Shown here: in pieces, positions 4,448 through 18,083 of the stretch
How the letters are laid out: each line of letters opens with the position of its first letter
Position numbering within the stretch: position 1 is the stretch's first letter
Assembly (NCBI GenBank): GCA_018812485.1
Contig: JAHJDO010000130.1
Coordinates: 1-33,493 of the forward strand
DNA from: a bacterium
GTDB taxonomy: Bacteria > JAHJDO01
Direction: 5' to 3'
Length of the DNA stretch: 33,493 nucleotides
Position numbers and translations under genes: made by a program
The notes under the pieces: generated by a model
The model's input: only the letters and a program-made list of their open reading frames with translations
Told to the model about the DNA's origin: nothing
Databases searched by the model: none

Positions 4448-4596
4448 TAGGAGCAGATCATATCGGGACCCGACTTTTATATTCCCCCTACCACCCATGT
4501 TTGCCTTTTATAACCCAGGCTTGACTACACAGAGATTTATTACTCATGTTTTAACAAGTAAAATTTTTTTAATGTAAAACATCAGCAAGGTTCGCT

Positions 4597-4640
4597 TGAT
4601 TAGTCCCTTCGGACTATTCCTGGGCCTTCGGGGCTAATCA
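4597..4640. other. Small branched inverted-repeat structure
   Basis: TGATTAG (4597-4603) pairs with CTAATCA (4634-4640) around two mini-hairpins, TCC-CTTC-GGA and CC-TTCG-GG. An alternative fold is TAGTCC/GGACTA (4601-4606/4611-4616). The preceding CAGCAAGGTTCGCTTGAT is a near copy of CAGCAGGGTTTGCTTGAT at about 4324-4341. Function unknown. Confidence 0.35.
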
Positions 4641-4725
4641 CTTCTATTGCTATTATTACTAACAGCAATAAAAGATAGCTCACTAACAAATCTCTGCTTG
4701 TTTCTAAAGAAGAAAGGCAAACATA

Positions 4726-4767
4726 CCCGTCCGTCCCCCAGAGGGGGACTCCACCAACCAACCTCCC
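4726..4767. repeat. CCCGTCC repeat element, copy 1
   Basis: Begins CCCGTCCGTCCCC and holds a 7-bp hairpin GTCCCCC-AGA-GGGGGAC (4733-4749), then AACCAACCTCCC. A closely similar element lies at 9687-9727, just upstream of the structured RNA there. Confidence 0.65.
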
Positions 4768-4839
4768 CAACGGATCACAGCAGAAGACACTCCCAAAGGA
4801 AGCCTTTTTCAAAGGGAATCCTTCTCAAAAAATCTTTTT

Positions 4840-4939: not shown

Positions 4940-4965
4940 TTTAAGAGAGAAAAACCTCTCTTAAA
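4940..4965. other. 10-bp hairpin in the gene-free region
   Basis: TTTAAGAGAG (4940-4949) pairs with CTCTCTTAAA (4956-4965). No T-tract follows, so I do not call it a terminator. Confidence 0.45.
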
Positions 4966-4981
4966 AATCTCTCCATTCTTC

Positions 4982-5027
4982 CAGGCATTACCTGCGAAGG
5001 CTGCACTGGTCTATTTTTTAGTTACTG
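4982..5027 (+). terminator. CAGG-N5-CCTG mini-hairpin 4 and possible terminator
   Basis: CAGGCATTACCTG (4982-4994) is a member of the mini-hairpin family. A wider pairing of CCAGGCA with TGCACTGG is followed by a run of six T (about 5015-5020), so the stretch could end a transcript from the 4.2-4.9 kb region. Confidence 0.35.
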
Positions 5028-5226
5028 ATGCCCCAGCTCCTTTCTTGTTTAACTTAATTTATGAGGTTCTTGTTTATTATTTTCATTGGCAAGCCCCTCC
5101 TGTTTTTGGAACCTGCCCTCTCACCGCCCCGAGTAAGTCAATCCCACCCTTTTTTTTAAAAAAACTTGAAGAATTCTCTAAAGAAGTAACTGCATAAAAT
5201 TTGTGAACATAAAACCCCGCCTAACA

Positions 5227-5256: not shown

Positions 5257-5441
5257 GATACTGCGAGATTTATCCTTCCAAAATTTTGAACTTTTTTTAA
5301 CCTGTTTGTCCCAAACCTAAAAAATGGCAGGAGTGACTGTCTATCTTGCTTACAACTCTATGGTCCAAAATTGCTCAATCAAACTTTAGTGGTGTGGGGC
5401 TTTTTGTGAAGAGGGCAGAACCACAAAAAAAGGAGGAACTC

Positions 5442-6149
5442 ATGAAAACAAAGAGCAAACAAGAACTAAAAAAGTCGAAAACAAAAAAGGAGAAGAAGAT
5501 GCAAACTAAAAAACAGCCCAGTGGAAAAGGGCAGGTCGAAAAAGCAGTCAATAATAACAAGAAAGGGGAAAAGATGAACAAGACACAAGACAAAAAACAG
5601 TTGGTTGACCTTGAATCTGCATTGAAAGGAATTGCAGTCAAATTAACAAGAGACGATTTATTACAAGATGAACTTGTACAAGAGGGACTTATTGCCATAT
5701 GGACTAAGCAAAAGAGAGACGGTAACTATAACGAGGCATATCTCAGACAGCATGCAAAGCATCGTATGTTTAATTATCTAAAATTAGGAAGTAGTTTAGA
5801 TAATGGATTTCGTGAGATTACACAGATTGACCTTGTAAATGCTAATACAGGCGAAACCGTCGATTTACCACATCCTGAAAGCTTTATGCACAGAATATAT
5901 GCAAGAGACCTGAAAAGTCTTATAAATAAGCATACATCGGGCATAACAAACATGATTTTTCATATGTTTTGTGATGGATATGATGAAAACGAGATTGCAG
6001 GGAAACTTAAAATCTCTCAAAAAAATGTTAGCCGTGAAAGAGAAGTTGTTCAAGACCTTGTGAAAAAACTTTACGGAAGAGGTAAAGTTGCTTTACGTAA
6101 AGTCAGAGACAAGAGCAATAAAAATCAGCTCATTTTCTGCATTACATAA
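5442..6149 (+). CDS. Sigma-70-family RNA polymerase sigma factor (ECF-like)
   Basis: 235 aa from the ATG at 5442, chosen because AAAGGAGG lies 6-8 bp upstream; a longer frame from 5346 has no such site. After a lysine-rich tail of about 50 residues, a region-2-like domain shows DLLQDELVQEGLIAIW (the sigma 'DLVQEGxxxLW' core) and AYLRQHAKHRMFNYLK. The C-terminal part has a region-4 helix-turn-helix, DGYDENEIAGKLKISQKNVS with RERE after it. I infer that it directs RNA polymerase to the TGTCTAA/GTTATAT promoters, the first of which starts 208 bp past its stop. Its own promoter does not show that motif. Two further in-frame ATGs (5500, 5574) are each preceded by purine-rich ribosome-site-like sequence and could give shorter forms. 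It could instead be a phage-type transcription regulator with a sigma-like fold. Confidence 0.8.
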   Translation: MKTKSKQELKKSKTKKEKKMQTKKQPSGKGQVEKAVNNNKKGEKMNKTQDKKQLVDLESALKGIAVKLTRDDLLQDELVQEGLIAIWTKQKRDGNYNEAYLRQHAKHRMFNYLKLGSSLDNGFREITQIDLVNANTGETVDLPHPESFMHRIYARDLKSLINKHTSGITNMIFHMFCDGYDENEIAGKLKISQKNVSREREVVQDLVKKLYGRGKVALRKVRDKSNKNQLIFCIT

Positions 6150-6356: not shown

Positions 6357-6386
6357 TGTCTAAATAGCTTATTTTTACTGTTATAT
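6357..6386 (+). promoter_or_regulatory. Element promoter 1 (TGTCTAA-N16-GTTATAT)
   Basis: TGTCTAA 6357-6363 and GTTATAT 6380-6386, followed by ATATAGAG. Serves the DUF2958-RadC group. First of 16 copies. Confidence 0.8.
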
Positions 6387-6421
6387 ATATAGAGAAGCAA
6401 ACAACATGGGAGAAAGTAAAA

Positions 6422-6727
6422 ATGAAGTTATTGACTGAGGAAATTAAAAATAAGTTTCCGGAAATATATGCAAATGAGAATAAAAAACCAGAGGATATTC
6501 CTGTTATCTGTAAATTTTTTGACCCGACAGGCTCATGGGCTTGGTATGCAACGGAATTTGACGGGATAGATACTTTTTTTGGCTGGGTGCATGGATATTT
6601 TCCTGAATTAGGAACTTTCTCATTGAGAGAGTTGCAGAGTGTAAAGTTTTCGTTTGGGTTGGGAATTGAAAGAGACCTGCATTTCGGAAAACATACTCTG
6701 GCGGAAGTTATGGAAAAGAGACTATAA
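6422..6727 (+). CDS. DUF2958 family protein
   Basis: 101 aa. The whole length fits DUF2958: an N-terminal LLTEEIKNKFPEIYANE, then CKFFDPTGSWAWYATEFDG, FFGWVHGYFPELGTFSLREL, and the C-terminal GLGIERDLHF. The family is common on plasmids and conjugative elements, often beside radC, ardC and large methylase-helicase genes, as here. Its biochemical role is unknown. It is the first gene behind element promoter 1, with GGGAG a short way before the ATG. Confidence 0.85.
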   Translation: MKLLTEEIKNKFPEIYANENKKPEDIPVICKFFDPTGSWAWYATEFDGIDTFFGWVHGYFPELGTFSLRELQSVKFSFGLGIERDLHFGKHTLAEVMEKRL

Positions 6728-6739
6728 GGGGGGCAAATA

Positions 6740-7177
6740 ATGAACATTAGAACACCAAAAATTAAGATTGCAAATCCCGCTGAAATAGCTGGGATTCTGA
6801 CCAAAGTCCTCAATGCCGAAGATGAAAATGACCAGAAAAAAGAGCATTGCTGGGTCATTGGGTTAAGGGCATCAAAAGTAATCGAATTCTTGGAACTGGT
6901 CAGTCTTGGGTCGCTAACTATGGGAATTGTGCATCCTAGAGAAGTATTTAGATTAGCAATCCTCAAAAGAGTAGATAAAATTATTCTAGGACATAATCAT
7001 CCTTCGGGCGTTTTAACTCCTTCTAAAGAAGATTTAGACGTTACGAGAGAGCTGATTAAGGCTGGGCAGATACTTAGCATTGAATTATTGGACCATATAA
7101 TAATTTCACTAAAGGGAGAATTTCACAGCTTCTTAAATAATAATTTAATCAATAAATTAAAAGAGAAGGAACTATAA
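6740..7177 (+). CDS. radC: RadC-like JAB/MPN domain protein
   Basis: 145 aa, the size of the RadC C-terminal domain without the N-terminal HhH part. The JAMM-type metal site is visible: FLELVSLGSL contains the upstream acidic residue, then HPREVFRLAI and the core GHNHPSGVLTPSKEDLD (residues about 84-100, HxHPSG-x-D). Mobile-element RadC proteins are often called DNA repair proteins, but the family's repair role is doubtful and the activity is unknown. GGGGGG precedes the ATG, and the next gene starts 3 bp after the stop, so it belongs to the operon of promoter 1. Confidence 0.9.
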   Translation: MNIRTPKIKIANPAEIAGILTKVLNAEDENDQKKEHCWVIGLRASKVIEFLELVSLGSLTMGIVHPREVFRLAILKRVDKIILGHNHPSGVLTPSKEDLDVTRELIKAGQILSIELLDHIIISLKGEFHSFLNNNLINKLKEKEL

Positions 7178-7179
7178 AG

Positions 7180-7401
7180 ATGGCAAAAATAAAAGATTTT
7201 GCTTGGGAAGAGGAGTTAATCAAGATAGTAGCGGATTATAAAGAAAAAGAGGGTTATGAGGTAGATGAGGCTCTTGACGGCGATGAAACAGAACGATTGG
7301 CAGGAATACTGCTTATAGAGTTGGACTTAATGGAAGGCAATATTACTCAGGAAGAATATCTGAAAAGATTGGAAAGGCTGGAAACAAAATGGAAAAAATA
7401 A
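7180..7401 (+). CDS. Small acidic hypothetical protein
   Basis: 73 aa, highly charged and probably all helical (DFAWEEELIKIVADYKEKEG, ending YLKRLERLETKWKK). Starts 3 bp after radC and overlaps the next gene by 13 bp, which supports real, coupled translation. No family recognised. Confidence 0.7.
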   Translation: MAKIKDFAWEEELIKIVADYKEKEGYEVDEALDGDETERLAGILLIELDLMEGNITQEEYLKRLERLETKWKK

Positions 7402-7790
7402 ACAAGAATAAAATATATTATTCCGAAGAAAACAATGGTTCATTCTGGCGGGTAAAAACATTAACAGAGAGAACCATTGAACTTGAACGGATAAAAGATG
7501 TAAATAATAACGCTGATGATATTGGAGTAGATTTTGATGAGATAACTTGTAAATGGGATAACCGTTGTAAACATCATATATCAATGGATGATGATGAGAG
7601 CTTTACAATATACCCATATAGGAATGGACAACCATTTTGCTTTCAACCTGCAACAATAGAGGATTGTAATATGGAAATTAAGAGCTGTAAAAAATGGGGA
7701 GTAAGTGAAAAATTTTATCAAGATATAAAAACAGAAATAAAGGAATCGTCTCTCAATAATATAAAAATTCCTTTTTTAATCGGTGTCTAA
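7389..7790 (+). CDS. Hypothetical protein, 133 aa
   Basis: Overlaps the previous gene by 13 bp. The middle has CKWDNRCKHHISMDDDES and later GQPFCFQPATIEDC, but the Cys/His spacing is not a zinc finger I recognise. It ends ...IGV with GTC-TAA, where the TAA is also the end of the -35 element of promoter 2, so the next promoter lies directly on its 3' end. Function unknown. Confidence 0.75.
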   Translation: MEKINKNKIYYSEENNGSFWRVKTLTERTIELERIKDVNNNADDIGVDFDEITCKWDNRCKHHISMDDDESFTIYPYRNGQPFCFQPATIEDCNMEIKSCKKWGVSEKFYQDIKTEIKESSLNNIKIPFLIGV

Positions 7791-7813
7791 CTTCCTTGTG
7801 TTTACTGTTATAT
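7784..7813 (+). promoter_or_regulatory. Element promoter 2
   Basis: TGTCTAA 7784-7790 (includes the stop codon of the preceding gene), 16 bp, GTTATAT 7807-7813, then ATACGAG. Confidence 0.8.
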
Positions 7814-7850
7814 ATACGAGGTAAACAAATAATAATAACAAGGGGACGGC

Positions 7851-8048
7851 ATGATAGTTAAAAACCTGATAAAACTATTAAAGACTTTAGACCAAAATGC
7901 AGTGATAGATATGTCGTCAGACGAAGAAGGTAACAGCTTCGGAGATATATCTGAGAATTATGCCGAATTAACGCTAAAAGACGGAAGAAAAGCTTATGGC
8001 TTATATCCTATGAATAGCGAAGAACCTGGATGTAGATATAAATTCTAA
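7851..8048 (+). CDS. Hypothetical protein, 65 aa
   Basis: Follows promoter 2 with AAGGGGA as ribosome binding site. The N-terminus MIVKNLIKLLKTLDQNAVID resembles the start of several short phage/plasmid proteins that begin with 'v.eLi..L...dpda.V', but no function is known. Confidence 0.7.
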   Translation: MIVKNLIKLLKTLDQNAVIDMSSDEEGNSFGDISENYAELTLKDGRKAYGLYPMNSEEPGCRYKF

Positions 8049-8061
8049 AAGGAGGATAGTT

Positions 8062-8478
8062 ATGGAAAAGGTTTATCAAGTAAACAAGCATGGAAGATTG
8101 GTTATCGAGGAGAAAGAAGAAGATATAAAAAGTCGGGTCCTAGAAATGTTGAAAGAAGATACCGATTATAAAGATGAGGAAGCATTTAATAAGCATTTGA
8201 AAGAAGAATATAATGCTTATGATGATGAACATCTGATCAATACAATCTTCGGCGCAGTTAGTGATATTGTATCTTACGATTATAACTCATCACCGGAGTT
8301 CGATTCTTATGGTGAAGTAAGTTATTTTAGCAGAACAATAAATAAAACTGTAATGCTTACTCAAGATGATAGCTTTTGGTATGAGACCTTAGATGAAATC
8401 ATCGAGGCAATCAAAGGCTACGAAGTAGAAGTAAAGCAAGTTGAATATAATATGAAACACAGAACACACTCCGTCTAA
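8062..8478 (+). CDS. Acidic hypothetical protein, 138 aa
   Basis: Strong AAAGGAGG ribosome site 13 bp after the previous stop. The product is acidic (EEKEEDIKSRVLEMLKEDTD, EEYNAYDDEH) with an aromatic middle and no signal peptide or membrane segment. It ends HSV with GTC-TAA, the stop lying in the -35 element of promoter 3. Unknown function. Confidence 0.75.
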   Translation: MEKVYQVNKHGRLVIEEKEEDIKSRVLEMLKEDTDYKDEEAFNKHLKEEYNAYDDEHLINTIFGAVSDIVSYDYNSSPEFDSYGEVSYFSRTINKTVMLTQDDSFWYETLDEIIEAIKGYEVEVKQVEYNMKHRTHSV

Positions 8479-8501
8479 ATAGTCTGGTTCTGCTGTTATA
8501 T
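8472..8501 (+). promoter_or_regulatory. Element promoter 3
   Basis: CGTCTAA 8472-8478 (contains the preceding stop codon), 16 bp, GTTATAT 8495-8501, then ATACGAG. Confidence 0.8.
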
Positions 8502-8541
8502 ATACGAGCAGGATAAACAACAATAACAAAAAGGGGGAAGC

Positions 8542-9039
8542 ATGAGCAACACGAATGGCAAGTCCAGGGAAATTGGAACAATAGAAAAGCGGGAACTTGC
8601 GAAGCTAATTGAAAATGAACATCAAAGAGCAATAGAGAGTGTAAAACAGCAATTAGGGCTGACAGAGACGGAAATACTCGAAAAAGCAAGGAAAAAGTTT
8701 GGCATAGAAATTATAGAGGGGAAAATATCCTCACTAAAAAAAGAGATAGACATGCTTGAAAAGAAGGAACAAGACCTTGGTTTTACTGGATATGACAATC
8801 AATTTAAAACAGTATATAAGGACAATGAAATGATTGTTGATATAAGGACACCAGCAGGGAAATTGTTTTATGGCGAAGTTGGGGAACGACAGAACGTGCA
8901 GAGTATGATTCGGCTTAAAGAGGAAAGATTAAAGAAACTCTGGCTGGAAACGGACAGGAATAAAATACTGAAAATCGTCAATCAAAAGATTGAAATGCCT
9001 ATGTTGGGAAGTAGGGAAACAAAAAGGATAGCTGCGTGA
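8542..9039 (+). CDS. Coiled-coil hypothetical protein, 165 aa
   Basis: Preceded by AAAGGGGG. Residues about 15-75 are long charged helices (ENEHQRAIESVKQQLGL, GKISSLKKEIDMLEKKEQDL), probably a coiled coil; a second helical stretch is at SMIRLKEERLKKLWLETDRN. No catalytic motif seen. It is alone behind promoter 3 and is followed by a terminator. Could be structural or an adaptor; function unknown. Confidence 0.8.
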   Translation: MSNTNGKSREIGTIEKRELAKLIENEHQRAIESVKQQLGLTETEILEKARKKFGIEIIEGKISSLKKEIDMLEKKEQDLGFTGYDNQFKTVYKDNEMIVDIRTPAGKLFYGEVGERQNVQSMIRLKEERLKKLWLETDRNKILKIVNQKIEMPMLGSRETKRIAA

Positions 9040-9050
9040 AAAGTGTATCT

Positions 9051-9084
9051 GACAGGGCGTATTTAATACGCCCTGTCTTCCTTT
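9051..9084 (+). terminator. Rho-independent terminator
   Basis: GACAGGGCGTATT (9051-9063) pairs perfectly with AATACGCCCTGTC (9065-9077), followed by TTCCTTTT. Ends the promoter-3 transcript 12 bp past its gene. Confidence 0.85.
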
Positions 9085-9115
9085 TGACAGAAAAAGACAA
9101 TAAAGGTTTTGCTGC

Positions 9116-9145
9116 TGTCTAAGTCTCTTAATTCTTCTGTTATAT
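9116..9145 (+). promoter_or_regulatory. Element promoter 4
   Basis: TGTCTAA 9116-9122, 16 bp, GTTATAT 9139-9145, then CTATGAG. Serves the SWIM-domain gene and perhaps the structured RNA beyond it. Confidence 0.8.
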
Positions 9146-9187
9146 CTATGAGAGACAATAAAAGAATAGGATGCGAGGGAAAATATT

Positions 9188-9640
9188 ATGAACTGGGTTA
9201 AAAAATGGGAAGTTGAGGGCAGCACAGGAAACATTTACACGGTTTCAATTGACAAGAATAATAACTACGGCTGTAGTTGTCCTGTCTGGAAATTTAGACG
9301 GCAGGAGTGTAAGCATATTGCACAGGTGAAACTTAATGGCGGGCAGGAAATTGAGAAACAAAAAATCCTCTTTGCAAAGGTAAGGCAAGTTCAGGTTAAA
9401 GATGATGCTATATTGGTCCCTTTGTGTCCTTTTGATGATGCGCATTTTTCTGCGACTATTGCCTATGATTTGGTAAAATTGGGCGTTTCCTCGCAGACGA
9501 TCAAAGACTATAACAATTGCGTGAAAGACAACTCTATAAAAGCAATTAAGGACTATATTGAGGCTCATGGGCGACGAATTTATGATAAATTAAGTTATAA
9601 GCCTGGGATTGCAACTACTTATAAGGTAGTGCCCGTATAA
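9188..9640 (+). CDS. SWIM zinc-finger protein
   Basis: 150 aa. Residues about 28-45 read CSCPVWKFRRQECKHI, the CxC-n-CxH signature of SWIM domains, which bind zinc and usually DNA or protein. Upstream are the expected short beta strands (GNIYTVSIDKNNNYG). The rest (residues 60-150) has no recognised domain. SWIM proteins occur in transposases, SNF2 helicase systems and plasmid hypotheticals; the element also encodes a SNF2-type helicase, but a link is only a guess. Confidence 0.75.
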   Translation: MNWVKKWEVEGSTGNIYTVSIDKNNNYGCSCPVWKFRRQECKHIAQVKLNGGQEIEKQKILFAKVRQVQVKDDAILVPLCPFDDAHFSATIAYDLVKLGVSSQTIKDYNNCVKDNSIKAIKDYIEAHGRRIYDKLSYKPGIATTYKVVPV

Positions 9641-9686
9641 AAAAACAATCCCCTACCTCCCTTTCAAAGAAGCTGAACGCTTATGT

Positions 9687-9727
9687 CCCGTCCGTCCCCA
9701 GAGGGGACTCCCCAAAACCAACCTCCC
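9687..9727. repeat. CCCGTCC repeat element, copy 2
   Basis: CCCGTCCGTCCCC, hairpin GTCCCC-AGA-GGGGAC (9694-9708), then AACCAACCTCCC. Same order and loop as the copy at 4726-4767. It ends 9 bp before the outer helix of the structured RNA. Confidence 0.65.
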
Positions 9728-9735
9728 ACATATAC

Positions 9736-9971
9736 GCAATTTTTAATCTTTTGGGAGAGCAAGTCAGGTGTCGGATTTTTTATTGCTGGACTGTGGAAAT
9801 TGTCTCTCTGTGGATAGTCCAATGGACTACCCACATCGTTTGGAAAACTATCTCAGGCAAAAAGTCCGGAAGTTTCCCACATTTCCCACAGCATTACTGA
9901 GGGGGCTCTCTCAAACAGCCCCCTTTAAATCAGCAATAAAAAATCCTCTGTCTACAAAGATCAAAAATTGC
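9736..9971 (+). ncRNA. Structured RNA with two nested 16-bp helices
   Basis: Helix P0: GCAATTTTTAATCTTT (9736-9751) with AAAGATCAAAAATTGC (9956-9971), 15 of 16 pairs. Helix P1: GGATTTTTTATTGCTG (9773-9788) with CAGCAATAAAAAATCC (9931-9946), 16 of 16. Inside P1: CTGTGGAAAT (9791-9800) with ATTTCCCACAG (9881-9891, one bulge), hairpin 9809-9820/9824-9835 (11 of 12 pairs), hairpin GGAAAACT/AGTTTCC (9842-9849/9871-9877) and GGGGGCT/AGCCCCC (9901-9907/9917-9923). The helices are mutually compatible, giving a rod with a multibranch head of about 236 nt. It matches no RNA family I can name; 6S RNA is also rod-like but has a different layout. The transcript probably continues to the terminator at 10030. 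The plus strand is assumed from gene direction. Confidence 0.7.
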
Positions 9972-10029
9972 TTGTGCTGATATCAAAGGTTATTGATCTG
10001 TTGAACATTGTTTTATGCCTGCTTTTTAT

Positions 10030-10055
10030 GCCCGGGCCAAATATCTCGGGCTTTT
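10030..10055 (+). terminator. Rho-independent terminator downstream of the structured RNA
   Basis: GCCCG (10030-10034) pairs with CGGGC (10047-10051), followed by TTTTGTTG. Lies between the structured RNA and promoter 5. Confidence 0.65.
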
Positions 10056-10113
10056 GTTGTTTAATAAAGGGGAAAAACAAAGTTTTTAAAAAAACAATGA
10101 AGATTTTAGGTGT

Positions 10114-10143
10114 TGTCTAAGTTTCTTGGTTCTCCTGTTATAT
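10114..10143 (+). promoter_or_regulatory. Element promoter 5
   Basis: TGTCTAA 10114-10120, 16 bp, GTTATAT 10137-10143, then CTATGAG. Confidence 0.8.
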
Positions 10144-10171
10144 CTATGAGATAAACAATAGCGAGGAAGAA

Positions 10172-10396
10172 ATGAAAGTTTTATTGATTGGAAAAGGGGG
10201 TTGCGGAAAGTGTAATCAAGCAAAAGACATGCTGAAAAAGAAAAACATTGAATACAAATATCTTGATGTTAATACTGTTGATGGCATGGCAGAACTAACA
10301 TATTACGGCGAAGATGGAAGGGTTTTACCTGTTATCGTGGTTAAGAATAAGGTTTTTAGAAGCGTAATAGAAGCTATTAAAACTATTCAAGGATAA
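10172..10396 (+). CDS. Glutaredoxin-like thiol protein
   Basis: 74 aa, thioredoxin fold of glutaredoxin size. The N-terminal strand KVLLIGKGG is followed by the redox motif CGKC (residues 12-15), a helix, then IEYKYLDVN and a cis-proline segment VLPVIVV. Such proteins reduce disulfides or a ribonucleotide reductase; no reductase gene is in the window. It shares promoter 5 with the ArdC-like gene 7 bp downstream. Confidence 0.85.
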   Translation: MKVLLIGKGGCGKCNQAKDMLKKKNIEYKYLDVNTVDGMAELTYYGEDGRVLPVIVVKNKVFRSVIEAIKTIQG

Positions 10397-10403
10397 AGCA
10401 ATA

Positions 10404-11189
10404 ATGGCAAAAGTAAATATAAAAGAAAAAGTCAGTGAAATATTAAAAAAGGCAGGGGAGATTGACTTAAAAGAATTCGCAAAAAAATTGGCGAATTTTC
10501 ATAATTACAGCTTATGTAACTGTTTTATGATAATGATTCAAAGGGCTAATGCTTCGCAGTGTGCGGGATTCCATGCGTGGAAAAAACTGGGCAGGTATAT
10601 CAAAAAGGGCGAAAAAGGAATTATGATCCTAGCTCCGAGAGAATATATCCCTAGAGAAATCAAGCAGGATGATACTCTTACAGACGAGCAAAAAAAAGAG
10701 CAAAAAAGAATTGGTTTTGTGTCTGCTTATGTTTTTGATATATCGCAGACAGACGGAAAGGAACTGCCTCCGACAACAGAAGTTGAAAAATGCGAGGTGT
10801 CTTATCAGAGTTTAAAAACAAAAGTAGAAAAGAAATATCCTGTTATTGAAAAAGCTATGGAGTATTTAAAAAGCGGGCAGACAAACGGAAAAGAAATCTT
10901 TTTAAATTCTATAAAAACAGAACAAGAAAAAGTGTGTGTATTATTGCATGAACTGGCACATATAGAGCTTGAACATGCAGGAATAAATAATCAGGTTAAA
11001 AATCCGTTGACGAAAGAGCAGAAAGAAACAGAGGCGGAATTACTGGCTTATATTACAGCATCTGGCATGGGAATTGAATACAAGGCAGAAAATTATCTTG
11101 CTTACTACAAGACAAAATTAAATTGGGATTTATTGAATAGACTGAATAAGGGTTATTTAAGAATGAAAAAGCTGGTAGCTGTTGTCTAA
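10404..11189 (+). CDS. ArdC-like protein: ssDNA-binding domain plus zinc metalloprotease
   Basis: 261 aa. Residues about 20-75 match the N-terminal domain of ArdC-type antirestriction proteins (FHNYSLCNCFMIMIQRANAS, HAWKKLGRYIKKGEKGIMIL, AP). The C-terminal half has the ImmA/IrrE-type zinc site LLHELAHIELEH at about residues 180-191, with a downstream ETEAELLAYI providing the third ligand region. Plasmid ArdC proteins bind single-stranded DNA and protect incoming DNA from restriction. It ends VV with GTC-TAA in the -35 element of promoter 6. Closely comparable proteins often accompany DUF2958 and RadC, as here. Confidence 0.85.
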   Translation: MAKVNIKEKVSEILKKAGEIDLKEFAKKLANFHNYSLCNCFMIMIQRANASQCAGFHAWKKLGRYIKKGEKGIMILAPREYIPREIKQDDTLTDEQKKEQKRIGFVSAYVFDISQTDGKELPPTTEVEKCEVSYQSLKTKVEKKYPVIEKAMEYLKSGQTNGKEIFLNSIKTEQEKVCVLLHELAHIELEHAGINNQVKNPLTKEQKETEAELLAYITASGMGIEYKAENYLAYYKTKLNWDLLNRLNKGYLRMKKLVAVV

Positions 11190-11212
11190 AGAGCATTGAT
11201 TATCTGTTATAT
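11183..11212 (+). promoter_or_regulatory. Element promoter 6
   Basis: TGTCTAA 11183-11189 (contains the stop codon of the ArdC-like gene), 16 bp, GTTATAT 11206-11212, then GTATAAGA. Confidence 0.8.
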
Positions 11213-11257
11213 GTATAAGAAAAAGAAAACTCAAAATAGCCGAAGGGGGTTTGGAAA

Positions 11258-11485
11258 ATGGACGCTTATTCAATTGACTTTCTTAAAAGTATGCTTAAGG
11301 CAAATTTTTGTGGAGTAAGAGCAATTGGTCGTAATACATGGGAAATTACTACAAATGAAGATAGAGGAATTGCTGATTATGACCATAGTCTTTTAGCGGA
11401 AAAACAATCATTAAAGCAATCAACAGATAAAATTATTAAGCTCAAAAATAAGCTCCGCAAAGAAAAAAAGGGACAATATGTATAA
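11258..11485 (+). CDS. Hypothetical protein, 75 aa
   Basis: GAAGGGGG ribosome site. Residues 1-40 are mixed, the tail is a lysine-rich helix (DKIIKLKNKLRKEKKGQY). Overlaps the next ORF by 8 bp. No family recognised. Confidence 0.65.
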   Translation: MDAYSIDFLKSMLKANFCGVRAIGRNTWEITTNEDRGIADYDHSLLAEKQSLKQSTDKIIKLKNKLRKEKKGQYV

Positions 11486-11666
11486 ATTTGAAGTGGGTGA
11501 TATGGCTAACGGAGTAAAAACAAGTAAAAAATACATGGAATCCTGTAATTACGTGACGGCTCTGGAAAGAGTGGTAGCAGACGCTAATCTTTATATTGAG
11601 CCCTGGGATGAAGAAGCAGAGAAACATATCAGAGGAGTTCAGGAAGTAAAATCAATAAAAATATAA
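11478..11666 (+). CDS. Hypothetical protein, 62 aa
   Basis: Starts inside the end of the preceding gene, suggesting coupled translation. Contains NYVTALERVVADANLYIEPW. Unknown function. Confidence 0.6.
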   Translation: MYKFEVGDMANGVKTSKKYMESCNYVTALERVVADANLYIEPWDEEAEKHIRGVQEVKSIKI

Positions 11667-11688
11667 AAACAAAAAAGCTAATAGCCAT

Positions 11689-11718
11689 TGTCTAAAGGCT
11701 TTGGATTATCTGTTATAT
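11689..11718 (+). promoter_or_regulatory. Element promoter 7
   Basis: TGTCTAA 11689-11695, 16 bp, GTTATAT 11712-11718, then GTATAGAAG. Confidence 0.8.
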
Positions 11719-11754
11719 GTATAGAAGATAAACAATTAAGGGAGAATAGATACA

Positions 11755-12045
11755 ATGGAAAAGACACTTGATGCAAGTATAAGTCTTCAGGTTAAAGACT
11801 TGAATCACTTAAAAACGTTAATACCAACTAAAACTGGTATATTTGCCGTAGCATTGAATTATGGGGTAAGGTCAACAAAGATTATTGCATACCATAAAGA
11901 GGTAGACAAATTTTATATTAGAAACCTTATAGACGAAAGCGAACAGTGTTTGAGTAGTGTCGAGATAATGGATAGTCAAAATACTATTATTGGAGACGCA
12001 ATCGAAAAAGGAGCTTTGTGGTTTGAGGAATATGTTGGCGAATAA
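11755..12045 (+). CDS. Hypothetical protein, 96 aa
   Basis: Preceded by GGGAG. Alternating strand pattern (TGIFAVALNYGVRSTKIIAY, HKEVDKFYIRNLID) suggests a small beta-rich domain. No family recognised. Shares promoter 7 with the next ORF. Confidence 0.7.
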   Translation: MEKTLDASISLQVKDLNHLKTLIPTKTGIFAVALNYGVRSTKIIAYHKEVDKFYIRNLIDESEQCLSSVEIMDSQNTIIGDAIEKGALWFEEYVGE

Positions 12046-12077
12046 AAGCTTGAGACTTTTATAAGAGGAGGAAAAGA

Positions 12078-12260
12078 ATGGGGGCTATATATAAAGTGTT
12101 AGAACTTGAAGGCAAACTTAGACAGTGTAAGGCAAAGAATTCGAGATGCAATACACAGATTAAAAAACTTAAAGAAAAAATAGAAAAATATAATAATTAT
12201 CTTGAGTTTACAGGTTGCAAGTCGGATTTTAATGATTATGTTGGAACAACAAGCTTATAA
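12078..12260 (+). CDS. Small coiled-coil protein, 60 aa
   Basis: AGAGGAGG ribosome site. Residues 5-45 form a charged helix (VLELEGKLRQCKAKNSRCNT, QIKKLKEKIEKYNN), probably a coiled coil, with two cysteines inside. Unknown function. Confidence 0.65.
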   Translation: MGAIYKVLELEGKLRQCKAKNSRCNTQIKKLKEKIEKYNNYLEFTGCKSDFNDYVGTTSL

Positions 12261-12276
12261 ACTGCTAATCAATGAC

Positions 12277-12292
12277 ATGCCTCACAAGGCAT
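12277..12292. other. Short hairpin after the promoter-7 operon
   Basis: ATGCCT-CACA-AGGCAT, 6 bp with a 4-nt loop and no T-tract. Confidence 0.4.
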
Positions 12293-12351
12293 AACCGCAC
12301 TTTCCTAAATTTAAAAAGATATTAAAAATTTCTATAGCCTATCTGGTCTTG

Positions 12352-12381
12352 TGTCTAACTTTGTTAATTTAACGGTTATAT
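12352..12381 (+). promoter_or_regulatory. Element promoter 8
   Basis: TGTCTAA 12352-12358, 16 bp, GTTATAT 12375-12381 (preceded by CG rather than CT), then GTATAGAG. Drives the operon that contains the hammerhead ribozyme. Confidence 0.8.
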
Positions 12382-12413
12382 GTATAGAGGTAAAACAAAA
12401 AGGAGTAAAAGCT

Positions 12414-12560
12414 ATGAGACATCAAAAGAACACGCTGGCACGAAAGAAAGTCATGCACAAGGATACCTTCAATCCGAAGGCAAAATCAAAGTATGCTAAG
12501 AAAAAAGTTCTGCAAAACAGGGGAATATATTTGATCAATTCTCCATTCTACGCTGGATAG
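12414..12560 (+). CDS. Small basic protein upstream of the hammerhead
   Basis: 48 aa from the ATG at 12414, preceded by AAGGAG; the open frame extends further left to 12351 but that part is the promoter. The product is strongly basic (HQKNTLARKKVMHKDTFNPK, then KSKYAKKKVLQNR), as in a small nucleic-acid-binding protein. Its last codons form one strand of stem I of the ribozyme. No family recognised. Confidence 0.65.
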   Translation: MRHQKNTLARKKVMHKDTFNPKAKSKYAKKKVLQNRGIYLINSPFYAG

Positions 12561-12628
12561 TCTAACTGATGAGGCCTGAATAGCCGAAACACCTTCGGGC
12601 GTCTTAGATAATAATAAAATAGGATGAG
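12541..12628 (+). ncRNA. Type I hammerhead ribozyme
   Basis: All core positions are present: CTGATGA (12566-12572), GAAA (12586-12589) and the cleavage triplet GTC (12601-12603), with cleavage expected after C12603. Stem II is GGC/GCC (12573-12575/12583-12585) with a 7-nt loop. Stem III is A89-U602, C90-G601, then an A-C mismatch, C92-G599 and C93-G598 (12589-12593/12598-12602) capped by TTCG. Stem I is TCTAA/TTAGA (12561-12565/12604-12608) and, beyond an internal loop, CATTCTA (12544-12550) with TAGGATG (12620-12626). The internal loop in stem I is what type I hammerheads use for loop-loop contact. The A-C mismatch in stem III is the one weakness. It lies between the first and second genes of the promoter-8 operon. 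Confidence 0.83.
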
Positions 12629-12636
12629 AATTTACA

Positions 12637-12846
12637 ATGTATGAAGAACAAGCGAAGCAATTTGCAATGACTGATTTGGGCTTAACAGAAGATGAGGCAG
12701 AGCAGGCGGTTGCAGACTTTTTGCCTGTAATTGATGGGGATTATTGTCAAGATTGCGGTTGCGAATTAATAGACGGAAAGAATTGTCAGGATAGTATTGA
12801 TGATGATTATTGCAATGACTGTTGGGCTAAGTATAAAAACAAATAA
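12637..12846 (+). CDS. Zinc-ribbon-like small protein
   Basis: 69 aa. The N-terminus is an acidic helical part (TDLGLTEDEAEQAVADFL); the C-terminal half has CQDCGCELIDGKNC and DDDYCNDCW, two CxxC knuckles about 20 residues apart, as in a zinc ribbon. Its AGGA ribosome site candidate (12621-12624) is paired inside stem I of the hammerhead, so the ribozyme may affect its translation. Confidence 0.7.
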   Translation: MYEEQAKQFAMTDLGLTEDEAEQAVADFLPVIDGDYCQDCGCELIDGKNCQDSIDDDYCNDCWAKYKNK

Positions 12847-12858
12847 GGGGAAATTGTT

Positions 12859-13011
12859 ATGGGAAAAACAAAGATACATATTTGGGCGCAGATTGGTAAG
12901 GAAATAACTGAGTTGGCGGGAGACATAAAAAAGATGAAAAGGTTATTGGGGTTTCTAAAGTTTCTTAATAATCCTGAACCTTTACTAAAAAACATTAAAA
13001 CGATGGGGTGA
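12859..13011 (+). CDS. Small hypothetical protein, 50 aa
   Basis: AAGGGG precedes the ATG. Amphipathic helices with basic face (IKKMKRLLGFLKFLNNPEPL). The next gene starts 4 bp after its stop. Unknown. Confidence 0.55.
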   Translation: MGKTKIHIWAQIGKEITELAGDIKKMKRLLGFLKFLNNPEPLLKNIKTMG

Positions 13012-13015
13012 ATAA

Positions 13016-13180
13016 ATGCAAGTGGAAACTAGAATAAAAGTATCTTATATAACGACATTAGGAGACCACTTTGATAGTGAAATTTCAGAAAAAGACAGAG
13101 AGGAATTAACAGAACAACACATAAGAGACTATTGCAAAGAATATGCTCTAAATAGAAATGATGTCAAAATTCTAAGTTAG
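13016..13180 (+). CDS. Small acidic hypothetical protein, 54 aa
   Basis: Reads MQVETRIKVSYITTLGDHFD and continues as a charged helix, SEKDREELTEQHIRDYCKE. It follows the previous stop by 4 bp with GGGGTGA as its only ribosome-site-like sequence. Unknown function. Confidence 0.5.
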   Translation: MQVETRIKVSYITTLGDHFDSEISEKDREELTEQHIRDYCKEYALNRNDVKILS

Positions 13181-13214
13181 GGAATAAAACAAATAAAATA
13201 AGAGGGAGAATAAC

Positions 13215-13385
13215 ATGTATATGATACTCAGGTGGCGAGACGACGATAGTTATTTAACGTGTCAAAAAAATAATGATGGCTCTATTATGCTTTTTAAAAC
13301 CCTCAAAGAAGCTGATAAGTATGCTAACGACCATCCTAAAACCAACGATATGAGAGTAATATCAATAGAGGCAGTGAAAGAATAA
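13215..13385 (+). CDS. Small hypothetical protein, 56 aa
   Basis: AGAGGGAG precedes the ATG. Sequence pattern MYMILRWRDDDSYLTCQKN, a strand-turn-strand, then FKTLKEADKYANDHP, a helix, then MRVISIEAV, a strand. Similar small beta-alpha-beta proteins are common on phages and plasmids without known function. Last gene behind promoter 8. Confidence 0.6.
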   Translation: MYMILRWRDDDSYLTCQKNNDGSIMLFKTLKEADKYANDHPKTNDMRVISIEAVKE

Positions 13386-13424
13386 GTTAAGGATGAAATA
13401 CTGGAAGAAGATTTATAAATAAGG

Positions 13425-13454
13425 TGTCTAAGTGGTTTATTGTTGCTGTTATAT
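13425..13454 (+). promoter_or_regulatory. Element promoter 9
   Basis: TGTCTAA 13425-13431, 16 bp, GTTATAT 13448-13454, then AAATAGAA. Confidence 0.8.
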
Positions 13455-13485
13455 AAATAGAAATTAAAAGAAAGGAAGTTTGATT

Positions 13486-13737
13486 ATGTATAAATATCTT
13501 GAAGAAACTTTTGATACATTTTATGAGGCTGTTCAGCAGTATCTAAAGTGGTGGGGTAATGGCGGGGGCTGTTACTCGCTGGAATGTCAGCTTAAGGATG
13601 TTGGTGATGAAAATATTACTAAAAAGGATTGGTTAAAACAGGCAAAAGATTTAATTAATGGATTAGATTATTGTTGCGCAGGTAAAGGAATTATGAGACT
13701 GCTGGATACAATAGATGTTGAAATTGTGGAAATTTGA
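13486..13737 (+). CDS. Hypothetical protein, 83 aa
   Basis: Start at ATG 13486 after AAAGGAAG; a TTG two codons upstream is less likely. Contains the aromatic stretch VQQYLKWWGNGGGCYSLEC and DYCCAGKGIMRLLD. Unknown function. Confidence 0.65.
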   Translation: MYKYLEETFDTFYEAVQQYLKWWGNGGGCYSLECQLKDVGDENITKKDWLKQAKDLINGLDYCCAGKGIMRLLDTIDVEIVEI

Positions 13738-13749
13738 AAGGGAAAGAAA

Positions 13750-13974
13750 ATGAATAATATAAAAAGCCTATTACCATCAGATGTAAGAGTTTTAAGGGCT
13801 ATTAATGCCACTGAAAACTATTTGGTTAATTGTAAGAACAAGCAGAAATTTACTAACTACGGATTGACTATTTATGGGTGTGAAAAAAGAAATTTGGGAG
13901 AATATAAAGAAATGCTTGGAAAAGATAAAAGAAAGTTAAACGGTAGATTGAGGGAGCTATATCTTTCAATATAA
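13750..13974 (+). CDS. Hypothetical protein, 74 aa
   Basis: Basic, with YGLTIYGCEKRNLGEYKEML and a lysine/arginine-rich C-terminal helix. Separated by 12 bp from the previous gene and 14 bp from the next, each with a purine-rich ribosome site. No family recognised. Confidence 0.65.
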   Translation: MNNIKSLLPSDVRVLRAINATENYLVNCKNKQKFTNYGLTIYGCEKRNLGEYKEMLGKDKRKLNGRLRELYLSI

Positions 13975-13988
13975 CAAAGGAAGGGAAA

Positions 13989-14342
13989 ATGAGTAAGGTA
14001 AAAAGATGTTGCAGAACCTGTAAATGCCTATTAAAGCAACACGATCAACATGTGTGTTATGAGGGCGGATTTTCCGAGATAGGTGATATTGATAGAAAGT
14101 TGACTATGAATGATTGTAATGCTTGGCAGGAAAAGAGTTTTAGTTTTTGGCTGTATGAGTATGCCTGTGATACTTGCCATTCAGTTTGGTATATGCAGGA
14201 AAAGATTAATAGACCATTAGATATTGACTTTGGATGTCCTCACGGTTGCGATGATGCAGGAAGATATGTTGGGAAAATGCAGGTTGAGAAATATAAATAT
14301 AAAACAAAGCCGTCTAAAAGCAGAAAACTTGCTGTTATATAA
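13989..14342 (+). CDS. Cysteine-rich protein, probably zinc-binding
   Basis: 117 aa. N-terminal CCRTCKCLLKQHDQHVC, then YACDTCHSVWYM and FGCPHGC, giving paired cysteines in at least three places and at least two likely zinc sites. The 3' end overlaps promoter 10: the codons GTT-ATA-TAA are the -10 element. Unknown function; possibly nucleic-acid binding. Confidence 0.7.
   Translation: MSKVKRCCRTCKCLLKQHDQHVCYEGGFSEIGDIDRKLTMNDCNAWQEKSFSFWLYEYACDTCHSVWYMQEKINRPLDIDFGCPHGCDDAGRYVGKMQVEKYKYKTKPSKSRKLAVI
14311..14340 (+). promoter_or_regulatory. Element promoter 10, inside the end of the preceding gene
   Basis: CGTCTAA 14311-14317, 16 bp, GTTATAT 14334-14340, then AAGTAGAA. Serves the membrane protein and dnaN. 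Confidence 0.78.
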
Positions 14343-14365
14343 GTAGAAACGAAAGGGGATATGTA

Positions 14366-14590
14366 ATGTGGATTATAACATGGAGTATGACTTTATTGAG
14401 TATTATTGGCGTAATTCTAAACATTAAAAAGAAAAGGATCTGTTTTGTTTTATGGTCAATAACAAATGTAAGCTGGTGCATTTATGACTTTACAATTCAA
14501 GCATATGCACAGAGCTTTTTGTTTCTTGTATATCTAGGATTGTCTATATGGGGAATCTTTGAATGGAAAAAGGAAAGAATAAAACAATAG
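14366..14590 (+). CDS. Small membrane protein, three helices (PnuC/SemiSWEET-like pattern)
   Basis: 74 aa, with hydrophobic segments MTLLSIIGVILNI, ICFVLWSITNVSWCIYDFTI and AQSFLFLVYLGLSIWGIFEW. The order 'lN...kk...W...N..W..Y' resembles small phage/plasmid membrane proteins related to PnuC nicotinamide-riboside transporters or SemiSWEETs. The substrate cannot be told. It is co-transcribed with dnaN, 12 bp downstream. Confidence 0.65.
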   Translation: MWIITWSMTLLSIIGVILNIKKKRICFVLWSITNVSWCIYDFTIQAYAQSFLFLVYLGLSIWGIFEWKKERIKQ

Positions 14591-14602
14591 GAGTAAAAAG
14601 CC

Positions 14603-15673
14603 ATGAAAATGACTGTAAAGAAAGAAAATCTAATTGATGCGCTTGCGTATTGTAGCGGAGCTGCAGGTAGCAAAAGGAATACTCTACCCGTTTTGGAATG
14701 CGTAAAGATGTCTGCAAAAGAGGGAAAACTGGAGTGTGTAACAACTGATCTTGAAATAACGCTGGGGAAAAGCGTTGAGTGTGAAGTAGAAAAAGAAGGG
14801 ACTATCCTTGTTTTACACAGAGATTTATTTGGCTTGGTAAAAGAGATTGATGTAGAAATGATCAGCCTTGAAGTAGAGAAAAAAGACACGGAAGAAGAAA
14901 AAGAAAAAACAGGTGTGCTTTTGCTAAAAACCGATAAGGGCAAGTATAGATTGCCGTTAGCAAAGGTTCAGGATTTCCCAAAGATTGAAAAAGTAGAAGC
15001 GAAAACAAGTCTGGAAATAGATATTAAAGAAGTGCTTCAGAAAACTATGTTTGCAGTGTCTAATGATGAAATAAGATATGCTCTAAACGGAGTGTTTTTT
15101 GATGGCGAAAATGCCGTTGCGACAAATGGGATTCGACTATCAGTAATACCCTGTAGTCTAATACCCTGTAGTCTAAGTGAAACAAGCTGTATTGTGCCTA
15201 CAAACGCCTGCAGGGAAATTGCGAAGATTGACGGAAAAGCAGAGGTGCAGATAACAGATAAAAATATCTTATTTAGAAATAATGGATCATATATTAAATC
15301 AAGGTTGGTAGAGGGGAAGTTCCCGGATTACAAGACGATAATTCCAAAAAACGATTGTAAAATAAAAATAAACAGCGAGGAATTGGTAAACGTACTTAAG
15401 AGAATGAAGCTGATCGATGAAAGCGCAGTAGAAATTGCTTTTGGAAAAGACAGTGTTGTATTTAAAAATGGGAAAGAAGGGAAAACAGCTAACGAAGAAA
15501 TGGTTATTAAAAATGAAGAAGAAAAGAAGTTTGCTATAAATCCTGTTTTCTTAATAGAAGTATTGAAAAGAGTAAGCGGAGAGGTTGTTTTTGAATTAGG
15601 GGAAGACGCAAATTCCCCAATTGTAATTAAAAAAGATGATTTTACCCATATCATAATGCCTGTCAAGCTTTGA
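14603..15673 (+). CDS. dnaN: DNA polymerase III beta subunit (sliding clamp)
   Basis: 356 aa, slightly short for a bacterial clamp of about 370. The three clamp domains are visible: the N-terminal MTVKKENLIDALAYCSGAAG...NTLPVLECVKM and VTTDLEI, the middle MFAVSNDEIRYALNGVFFD with ATNGIRLSV, and the C-terminal VNVLKRMKLID ending FTHIIMPVKL (the typical 'MPxRL' end). It encircles DNA and tethers polymerases and repair enzymes. A 15-bp tandem duplication (15146-15175) repeats IPCSL in the second domain. A plasmid-borne clamp implies that the element replaces or redirects the host replisome. GGAG precedes the start. A parS-like palindrome follows 4 bp after the stop. Confidence 0.93.
   Translation: MKMTVKKENLIDALAYCSGAAGSKRNTLPVLECVKMSAKEGKLECVTTDLEITLGKSVECEVEKEGTILVLHRDLFGLVKEIDVEMISLEVEKKDTEEEKEKTGVLLLKTDKGKYRLPLAKVQDFPKIEKVEAKTSLEIDIKEVLQKTMFAVSNDEIRYALNGVFFDGENAVATNGIRLSVIPCSLIPCSLSETSCIVPTNACREIAKIDGKAEVQITDKNILFRNNGSYIKSRLVEGKFPDYKTIIPKNDCKIKINSEELVNVLKRMKLIDESAVEIAFGKDSVVFKNGKEGKTANEEMVIKNEEEKKFAINPVFLIEVLKRVSGEVVFELGEDANSPIVIKKDDFTHIIMPVKL
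15146..15175 (+). repeat. 15-bp tandem duplication within dnaN
   Basis: ATACCCTGTAGTCTA occurs twice in tandem and encodes IPCSLIPCSL. It keeps the frame and looks like a recent slippage event. Confidence 0.9.
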
Positions 15674-15677
15674 TTAG

Positions 15678-15701
15678 AAAAGTTGAGCGCGCTCAACTTT
15701 T
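15678..15701. repeat. parS: parS-like palindrome, copy 1
   Basis: Perfect 24-bp palindrome around GTTGAGCGCGCTCAAC with AAAA/TTTT flanks and no loop. Three copies occur (15678, 24956, 31414), one upstream of parAB, and the core has the size and symmetry of ParB sites. As RNA it could also act as a weak terminator. Confidence 0.65.
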
Positions 15702-15722
15702 AAAAAACAAGTGTTTAATAGG

Positions 15723-15742
15723 GTCTCTGTGAGACTGCTTTT
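15723..15742 (+). terminator. Possible terminator after dnaN
   Basis: GTCTC-TGT-GAGAC (15723-15735) followed by TGCTTTTTG. Short stem, so moderate support. Confidence 0.5.
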
Positions 15743-15777
15743 TGTTTATAAGTAAGTCAGAAGTTTTTTAACAGTCC

Positions 15778-15807
15778 AGTCTAAAGTTTTTCCTAAAGCT
15801 GTTATAT
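15778..15807 (+). promoter_or_regulatory. Element promoter 11
   Basis: AGTCTAA 15778-15784, 16 bp, GTTATAT 15801-15807, then AAGTAGAAG. Confidence 0.78.
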
Positions 15808-15841
15808 AAGTAGAAGAACAAACAACAGAGGGAGTTTAGAT

Positions 15842-16030
15842 ATGGCATCAAAAGTAATTAAAAAACTAGAATCCAAAGACCAAGCATACGCCTTTTATAT
15901 CTTCCAGTTAAAAGAAAAACACAGACATCTTGAAGATATAGCAAACATAGGTAAAGACTTGAAAAAATTAGAGAAAGATTACGGGTTTAAAAAACCGAAT
16001 ATAAGTTTAGATTTCTATGTGGAGGTGTAA
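15842..16030 (+). CDS. Small helical hypothetical protein, 62 aa
   Basis: AGAGGGAG ribosome site. Helical and charged (KKLESKDQAYAFYIFQLKEK, IGKDLKKLEKDYG). Unknown function. Confidence 0.65.
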   Translation: MASKVIKKLESKDQAYAFYIFQLKEKHRHLEDIANIGKDLKKLEKDYGFKKPNISLDFYVEV

Positions 16031-16032
16031 AG

Positions 16033-16134
16033 ATGAGCAAATATCAAAGAATTTGGATCCATTTAATATGTATAGCTAAAGCCGGACATTTAGTTTGGCA
16101 CATTAAGGGCATATTGAGGGAATTCTTTGCCTAA
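16033..16134 (+). CDS. Very small hypothetical protein, 33 aa
   Basis: GGAGGTGTAAAG gives a good ribosome site over the end of the previous gene. The product MSKYQRIWIHLICIAKAGHL and VWHIKGILREFFA is a hydrophobic, aromatic helix, perhaps membrane-associated. Confidence 0.5.
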   Translation: MSKYQRIWIHLICIAKAGHLVWHIKGILREFFA

Positions 16135-16159
16135 AACTTTTTAAATAGGGGTTTTGAAA

Positions 16160-16573
16160 ATGGTTAATCAAATGGAATTGTTTAGAGAAAATAAGGTAAT
16201 GCCAGGCACAAATGGCGTGAGTTATGTTCCTGTTAAAGAAAAAAGCGCGGAGGACAAAGAGCTTTCTTATCTGAGTGATCTGGAAAAAGCTGAGTATCTG
16301 TGGGATATGAGGGCTTGGAAACAATACAAAGACCAGGCAGAAGTTGAGGATTACGTTAACGAGCCTACGAGCAAAAACAATGGCCATTCTATGTGGTGTG
16401 TGGAGAGATTAAAGGAGCTAGGTGTTGTAAAGAATAAAATAATCCAGGTAATAATGAAAAATCCTTATATCCAATACAAAAATCGGTTAGTCGCTTGTAT
16501 GGCGGGAGAAACCTGCCCAAAATTTGAGAAGTTTAAAAGTTACTCTGAATGTGGTTGTGAAAAATGTCAATAG
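16160..16573 (+). CDS. Hypothetical protein with C-terminal cysteine cluster
   Basis: 137 aa from ATG 16160; a TTG two codons earlier is less likely. The C-terminus holds ACMAGETCPKF and YSECGCEKCQ, six cysteines in about 25 residues, suggesting a metal-binding tail. The middle YLWDMRAWKQYKDQAEVEDY is helical. Unknown function. Confidence 0.7.
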   Translation: MVNQMELFRENKVMPGTNGVSYVPVKEKSAEDKELSYLSDLEKAEYLWDMRAWKQYKDQAEVEDYVNEPTSKNNGHSMWCVERLKELGVVKNKIIQVIMKNPYIQYKNRLVACMAGETCPKFEKFKSYSECGCEKCQ

Positions 16574-16578
16574 AAGAT

Positions 16579-16608
16579 TGTCTAACTTTTTCAGAAAAAC
16601 TGTTATAC
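16579..16608 (+). promoter_or_regulatory. Element promoter 12
   Basis: TGTCTAA 16579-16585, 16 bp, GTTATAC 16602-16608 (last base differs), then ATATAGAA. Confidence 0.75.
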
Positions 16609-16627
16609 ATATAGAAAGGGGGTCGTG

Positions 16628-17088: not shown

Positions 17089-17195
17089 TGCTAAAAGGGT
17101 TAAAAAAGTATTTGCTAAGCAGGGGGAGTTGTTTGCATGAAAGCGACAAAAACCAGGTAATAAGAGATATAAAAACAAAAGGAAATGAGAGATGA
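17088..17195 (+). CDS. Translationally coupled 35-aa ORF
   Basis: Starts in a TGATG overlap with the previous stop and ends in an ATGA overlap with the next start, reading MLKGLKKYLLSRGSCLHESD. The double overlap supports translation, but the ORF is short and no family is recognised. Confidence 0.45.
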   Translation: MLKGLKKYLLSRGSCLHESDKNQVIRDIKTKGNER

Positions 17196-17464: not shown

Positions 17465-17473
17465 AGGGTAAAA

Positions 17474-18074: not shown

Positions 18075-18083
18075 AGCAGAAAA

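Follow-up and report, generated by a model that had tools for sequence, protein, structure and literature searches.

A strand-specific, T-shaped foldback family with DnaA-box-like arms, found on a plasmid-like contig and in unrelated insertion sequences

The question raised by this locus is what the large inverted-repeat structure at positions 9736-9971 of contig C130 represents, on which strand it folds, and whether it acts as RNA or as DNA. The contig (33,493 nucleotides, hereafter the window) belongs to a 2.68-Mb draft genome, the phylum of which is represented by a single genus within the set examined. An earlier note, made from the sequence alone, had described the region as a large structured RNA built around two nested 16-bp helices. 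The present analysis assigns the region to a real, strand-specific and conserved family of T-shaped foldbacks, about 85-165 nt long; the window copy, read on the minus strand, is a solo one that has diverged and is framed by two 16-bp palindromes of its own and by an additional hairpin. The earlier description therefore holds as regards a large, real and selected single-strand structure, whereas its RNA nature is not established, in view of the rarity of G-U pairs and the DnaA boxes in the arms.

Fold of the window copy

The two inverted repeats lie exactly where the earlier note had placed them, at 9736-9751/9956-9971 (15/16) and 9773-9788/9931-9946 (16/16), and they stand alone in the 33-kb window as inverted repeats that reach 15/16 or better while spanning no more than about 260 nt. 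Folding of 9736-9971 with RNA parameters gives -82.3 kcal/mol for the plus strand (z -5.95) and -99.4 kcal/mol for the minus strand (z -9.57), values matched by no shuffled sequence, and DNA parameters give z-scores of -6.4 and -7.7, respectively. The claim of better-than-chance structure is thus upheld, both by the fold, which beats all shuffles on either strand, and by the repeats, which are unique in the window for their quality and spacing. When all 240-nt stretches were scanned on both strands, the one at 9721 on the minus strand was by far the best (z -10.2; runner-up -5.7). The outer helix and the central hairpin each have one mismatch, which reads as G-U if the minus strand folds and as A-C if the plus strand does; most likely the minus strand is the functional one. 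We agree that the region holds no believable protein, and no promoter-like site was found within 9640-10060 on either strand. The parts of the fold, all on the minus strand, are as follows:

9713-10000, minus: extended fold, with helices 9980-10000 / 9713-9731 outside P1 (z -8.6 for 9690-10003)
9736-9751, minus: 3' arm of P1, the outer 16-bp helix, pairing with 9956-9971; the single mismatch is G-U on this strand
9956-9971, minus: 5' arm of P1, from the inverted repeat and the fold
9773-9788, minus: 3' arm of P2, the inner 16-bp helix, pairing with 9931-9946 (probability 1.0); matched by no homologue
9931-9946, minus: 5' arm of P2, from the inverted repeat and pairing probability
9900-9924, minus: hairpin P3, AGGGGGCT...AGCCCCCT, between P2 and the core (pairing probability 0.99)
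9790-9899, minus: conserved core, a three-way junction in which helix H1 is outermost and H2 and H3 are hairpins, joined by the linkers T, AA and one of about 2 nt
9790-9799, minus: 3' arm of H1 (TTTCCACAGT), pairing with 9883-9892 (probability 0.97)
9883-9892, minus: 5' arm of H1 (GCTGTGGGAA), from pairing probability and covariation
9842-9849, minus: 3' arm of H2 (AGTTTTCC), pairing probability 0.98, followed by the conserved AA linker
9871-9878, minus: 5' arm of H2 (GGGAAACT), from pairing probability and covariation
9809-9820, minus: 3' arm of H3 (GGACTATCCACA), pairing probability 1.0, with the DnaA-box-like CTATCCACA at 9809-9817
9824-9835, minus: 5' arm of H3 (TGTGGGTAGTCC), from pairing probability and covariation

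Identification of the family

Direct blastn searches with the region found no homologue in plasmids, phages, its own genome or 96 other genomes. A covariance model built from the single minus-strand window sequence (R1) matched other genomes through its centre only (model positions 73-182, equivalent to 9790-9899), namely G003 (twice), G001 and G342, with E-values from 3e-9 to 1e-14; in the genome of the window it also picked up a truncated copy on contig C89. Helices P1 and P2 were unmatched in every one of these and are private to the window copy. The two nested 16-bp helices of the earlier note are thus real but lie outside the conserved part, only the central ~110 nt being kept elsewhere. 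A second covariance model made from five cores (R2) detected the family, at E <=1e-6, in eight genera and eight families among 385 genomes, with 1-7 copies per genome (seven in G042). It matches the window core at 9785-9905 with 88.7 bits (E 7e-20), and the core folds with a z-score of -5.3 on the minus strand versus -3.3 on the plus strand. Excluded from the family were G049, the weak R1 match of which was lost with R2, and G170, G205, G313 and G325 (E 0.001-0.01).

ROOL, GOLLD, OLE, 6S and other Rfam families resemble the element in being large structured sequences without an open reading frame. None matched at or near any threshold: Rfam gave no match to the window at gathering or relaxed thresholds, nor to 19 homologous loci, in agreement with the earlier note, which had recognised no known family. 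In IMG/VR we found nothing with the exact inner-helix pattern or the gapped core pattern, and 16 matches there to a short core word, lacking flanking arms, were ascribed to chance. With the members used as queries, no copy of the family turned up in the plasmid and phage records. Pasteurellaceae plasmids gave a 24-nt match (E 0.9) that seems to be a chance palindrome, and a 21-mer in common with G046, unique through the 385 genomes and with a model E-value of about 0.9 at the locus, was likewise taken as chance. Synteny was of no help, as the neighbouring proteins (SWIM, ArdC-like, SNF2/methylase) gave only distant relatives.

Covariation and strand

Among the five cores, aligned freely, nine pairs show double changes, a number reached in 0/500 shuffles and compared with at most 3 in slid controls. 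In 20 aligned copies 97.2% of the cells are paired, double changes occur in 24/30 pairs (H1 8/11, H2 5/7, H3 11/12), and the double-change cells number 111 (shuffles 29; slid controls 20 or fewer). Because the copies were fitted to the model, this alignment leans towards pairing; the slid controls and the free five-sequence set nevertheless give the same picture. The earlier note had proposed a search for homologues and a covariation check, and had named as adverse outcomes homologues that keep their primary sequence without compensatory changes, an open reading frame kept through the region, and a folding energy no better than that of shuffled sequence. Homologues were found, their covariation is massive, and none of these outcomes was seen.

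The same strand gives the better fold in 18/19 copies. Beside H3, a GYGA segment stands opposite GARC; in standard copies Y and R covary (GTGA/GAAC, GCGA/GAGC) around a GA/GA mismatch, which is present in most copies, while in four the stretch is fully Watson-Crick paired. The folding strand is taken to be this one because the complementary strand would have TC/TC at the GA/GA site. Five copies (L071, L073, L080, L083 and L087) contain nested stems of the same kind inside the H3 arm. Within G042, two copies with near-identical insertion-sequence ends, L080 (contig C15) and L083 (contig C51), have H2 wholly exchanged, both arms at once; the second of the two H2 hairpins occurs also in L087.

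DnaA boxes in the arms

G-U accounts for 13 of 549 standard pairs (2.4%), and A-C occurs in seven cells, all in L081 and L072. In RNA, G-U usually makes up 5% or more of the pairs; its rarity here would follow if the target were duplex DNA. H1, H2 and H3 have similar arms (TGTGGNNAAC), and when 26,280 9-mers were ranked by the number of sites with at most one mismatch, no motif being chosen in advance, the DnaA box TTATCCACA ranked first. Such sites number 42 in 16 copies, versus 0.5 in pair-preserving shuffles; at least one is present in 15/16 copies, and the exact box in nine. With up to two mismatches there are 3-8 boxes per copy, and nowhere in the window do boxes cluster more densely than at 9792-9890. 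The locus L074 (G205, contig C365), a weak model match, adjoins a dense cluster of exact TTATCCACA boxes, which is probably an origin.

Genomic contexts

The earlier note had assigned the structure to the plasmid-like element on which it was found; the family is instead carried mostly by insertion sequences, its copies lying inside or beside members of unrelated families. The adjoining transposases are of the IS256 (L091, L103), IS110 (L101, L102), IS21 (L105), integrase (L088 and L089, L104, L099) and IS66-like (L092, L098, G042 copies) types. The 3' end of the element points to the transposase in all transposase contexts except L091. In the integrase-type loci L088, L089 and L104 the element precedes the gene in sense orientation, and in the other contexts it stands behind the gene, antisense. 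The G042 copies have in common the transposase end and 60-73 nt beyond the element, after which their flanks diverge, so that the element must there lie inside the insertion sequence. Three contexts are without a recognised transposase (the window, L090 of G342, and L100, the last beside a group II intron piece), and in these too the element is antisense behind a gene.

The window itself is plasmid-like, with a sigma factor, RadC, DUF2958, an ArdC-like protein, an SNF2/N6-methylase, a UvrD helicase and ParA/ParB, together with a protein that resembles a beta clamp in length and appearance (beta clamp and ParA are named from the list of open reading frames only), and its copy sits on a conjugative-type element. 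Other contigs of the genome, read from their open reading frames, include C89, which encodes an F-type transfer region together with RepA, and C116, a piece of which reads like a TraI C-terminus, that is, the 3' part of a TraI-like relaxase. A truncated copy of the family lies at the start of C89, upstream of RepA. The immediate surroundings agree with the earlier note, which had placed the region between a gene and a terminator and behind a repeat shared with position 4726:

9188-9640, plus: upstream gene for a SWIM zinc-finger protein, with the element past its stop codon and antisense to it
9687-9728, plus: two-copy repeat with a small hairpin GTCCCC-AGA-GGGGAC, the second copy being at 4726-4767
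10030-10051, plus: intrinsic terminator behind the element, separating it from the next gene

Between the two copies of this repeat the hairpin, GTCCCC(C)-AGA-(G)GGGGAC, differs by one pair in stem length, a compensating change.

A possible role in priming

A DNA reading is preferred because the arms carry the DnaA box, and because the ABC primosome uses a DnaA-box hairpin on single-stranded DNA, the A-site, for the loading of DnaB by DnaA (Masai et al. 1990, cited in PMC6127211). One such hairpin on single-stranded DNA is enough for DnaB loading in vitro (PMC6127211). The family has this feature, a single-stranded hairpin whose duplex stem holds a DnaA box: a box with at most one mismatch occurs in 15/16 copies, and in the window it is CTATCCACA in H3, with one mismatch. 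By analogy, we give about an even chance to the family being a single-stranded DNA foldback that presents DnaA boxes and works like an A-site; the steps from DnaA-like arms to DnaA binding and to priming are inferred. The strand would become single-stranded during conjugative transfer, in replicative transposition or in lagging-strand gaps, and would fold into stems that present the boxes as duplex DNA; host DnaA might then bind these and help to load the replicative helicase DnaB and primase, upon which the complementary strand would be made. Like the A-site, the element is a one-strand hairpin with a DnaA box as stem duplex and is found on mobile replicons; it differs in forming a three-way junction whose linkers are conserved and whose boxes lie in several arms, sometimes with nested copies, in being mainly borne by insertion sequences, and in that its activity is predicted.

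Since DnaA is present in nearly all bacteria, such a mechanism would explain the portability of the device across unrelated mobile elements and hosts. It is conceivable, though we put it forward tentatively, that unrelated insertion sequences and plasmids share one fold module which recruits the host initiator to single-stranded intermediates of transposition or transfer; a shared replication plug-in of mobile DNA of this kind is so far unnamed. If so, transposons of unrelated chemistries would repeatedly have acquired the same cis element coupling them to the host replication initiator, and the long-discussed link between transposition and replication could be tested at one defined sequence. 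Should the mechanism turn out to involve RNA, a covariation-proven family that is absent from Rfam and common to several insertion-sequence families still provides new material for annotation.

Several observations weigh against an A-site-like role. The window copy has no exact box, its sole single-mismatch box being the one in H3, and pairing is kept while the box is lost in H2 of L083 and L087 and in H3 of L068, L069 and L070. As the copies are all homologous, their boxes do not count as independent cases. For the host DnaA itself the sole trace is a Bac_DnaA_C match of 32 bits in a frame of 86 residues, which leaves it unconfirmed; the window contig carries no recognised rep gene or oriT and hence no pointer to the transferred strand, and no need for DnaA is shown for unrelated insertion sequences.

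Alternative explanations and known systems

A transcript of the minus strand may instead fold as the three-way junction, with a regulatory function or that of a barrier within transcripts that enter the mobile element from outside, which we consider unlikely but worth weighing. The strand-specific fold accepts G-U and nearly lacks A-C, the minus-strand RNA fold is strong (z -9.6), and outside transcription into the insertion sequence would read the folding strand in all transposase contexts but one. The IS110 bridge RNA is a structured RNA borne by an insertion sequence, and like it and the IS200 5'tnpA RNA the element is a structured, non-coding part of insertion sequences; it differs from them in forming one family across unrelated insertion-sequence families, usually antisense behind the transposase and with few G-U pairs. 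For IS200 a structured 5' RNA is known (PMC12594629). The 2.4% share of G-U is low for RNA, however, a promoter-like site is lacking in the stretch searched and a U-tract behind H1 is absent, the folding strand is antisense to and behind the transposase in most insertion sequences, and the likeness of all arms to the DnaA box is left unexplained. The same boxes could also act in double-stranded DNA, in DnaA titration or activation or as part of a plasmid replication origin; the 3-8 boxes per copy (at up to two mismatches), the truncated C89 copy upstream of RepA and the weak G205 match (L074) beside a true DnaA-box cluster speak for this. Such a role is nonetheless very unlikely in our view, as it has no need for pairing in box-free distal stems or for strand-specific mismatches, yet both are conserved.

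Repetitive extragenic palindromes (REPs), passive or self-mobile, tolerated behind genes, taken up by insertion sequences and spread with them, are a further and rather improbable explanation. The copies stand behind stop codons as REPs do, many bear the tag GYMG, in the form GTAG, GCAG or GTCG, close to the 5' foot, as in the palindromes with a tag-like tetranucleotide at one foot known as GTAG/CGTC-tagged REPs (PMC3733652), and hairpins have been exchanged between otherwise near-identical copies within one genome (L080 versus L083). The family is, however, 3-5 times longer (a three-way junction of 85-165 nt versus 20-40 bp) and counts 1-7 copies per genome versus the high copy numbers of REPs; the window copy is untagged (GTAA), as are L068, L069, L079 and L081, and the deep covariation over eight genera suggests function. 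Identification as a GTAG-tagged REP was rejected on the size and three-way junction of the element and on the lack of the tag in these copies.

The single-strand promoters Frpo/ssi of conjugative plasmids (PMC11541004) resemble the window copy in being a folded strand on a conjugative-type element near an ArdC-like gene. They differ in that the stem of the element has no -35/-10 pair and a terminator (10030-10051) intervenes before the next gene, and Frpo was rejected on the lack of a promoter-like site in the element and on this terminator. A simple miniature inverted-repeat transposable element was discarded, as the P1/P2 inverted repeats are single copy in the genome and have no flanking duplications. 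An attC site was considered and dropped, and so was a retron msr-msd, the type VI-like reverse transcriptase gene (1132-2151) being about 7.6 kb away and not adjacent.

Other features of the window

That gene belongs to a type VI-like retron at 1-2151, which also comprises a helix-turn-helix gene at 851-1123 (PADLOC RT_VI, HTH_VI); region 121-600 folds better than shuffled sequence and may be its non-coding RNA. The second strongest structured region of the window is the minus strand of 4560-4780 (z -4.9, versus -2.8 for the plus strand), which adjoins the repeat at 4726. Upstream of the sigma gene, the non-coding stretch 4940-5202 shares 86% identity with contig C125 (L028, 5711-5956), against 75% for the sigma gene itself, and is a candidate origin, leader or RNA.

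About 16 copies of the motif GTCTAA-N16-GTTATATnTATAGA occur at 6357-25063 and 5346-6149, mostly before plus-strand genes and downstream of the sigma-70 region 2 protein. The motif is also present on contigs C89, C116 and C125, and together these copies resemble a sigma regulon dedicated to the mobile element. The palindrome GTTGAGCGCGCTCAAC has three sites in the genome, all in the window (15682, 24958 and 31417); given ParA/ParB at 31720-33421, they are probable parS sites.
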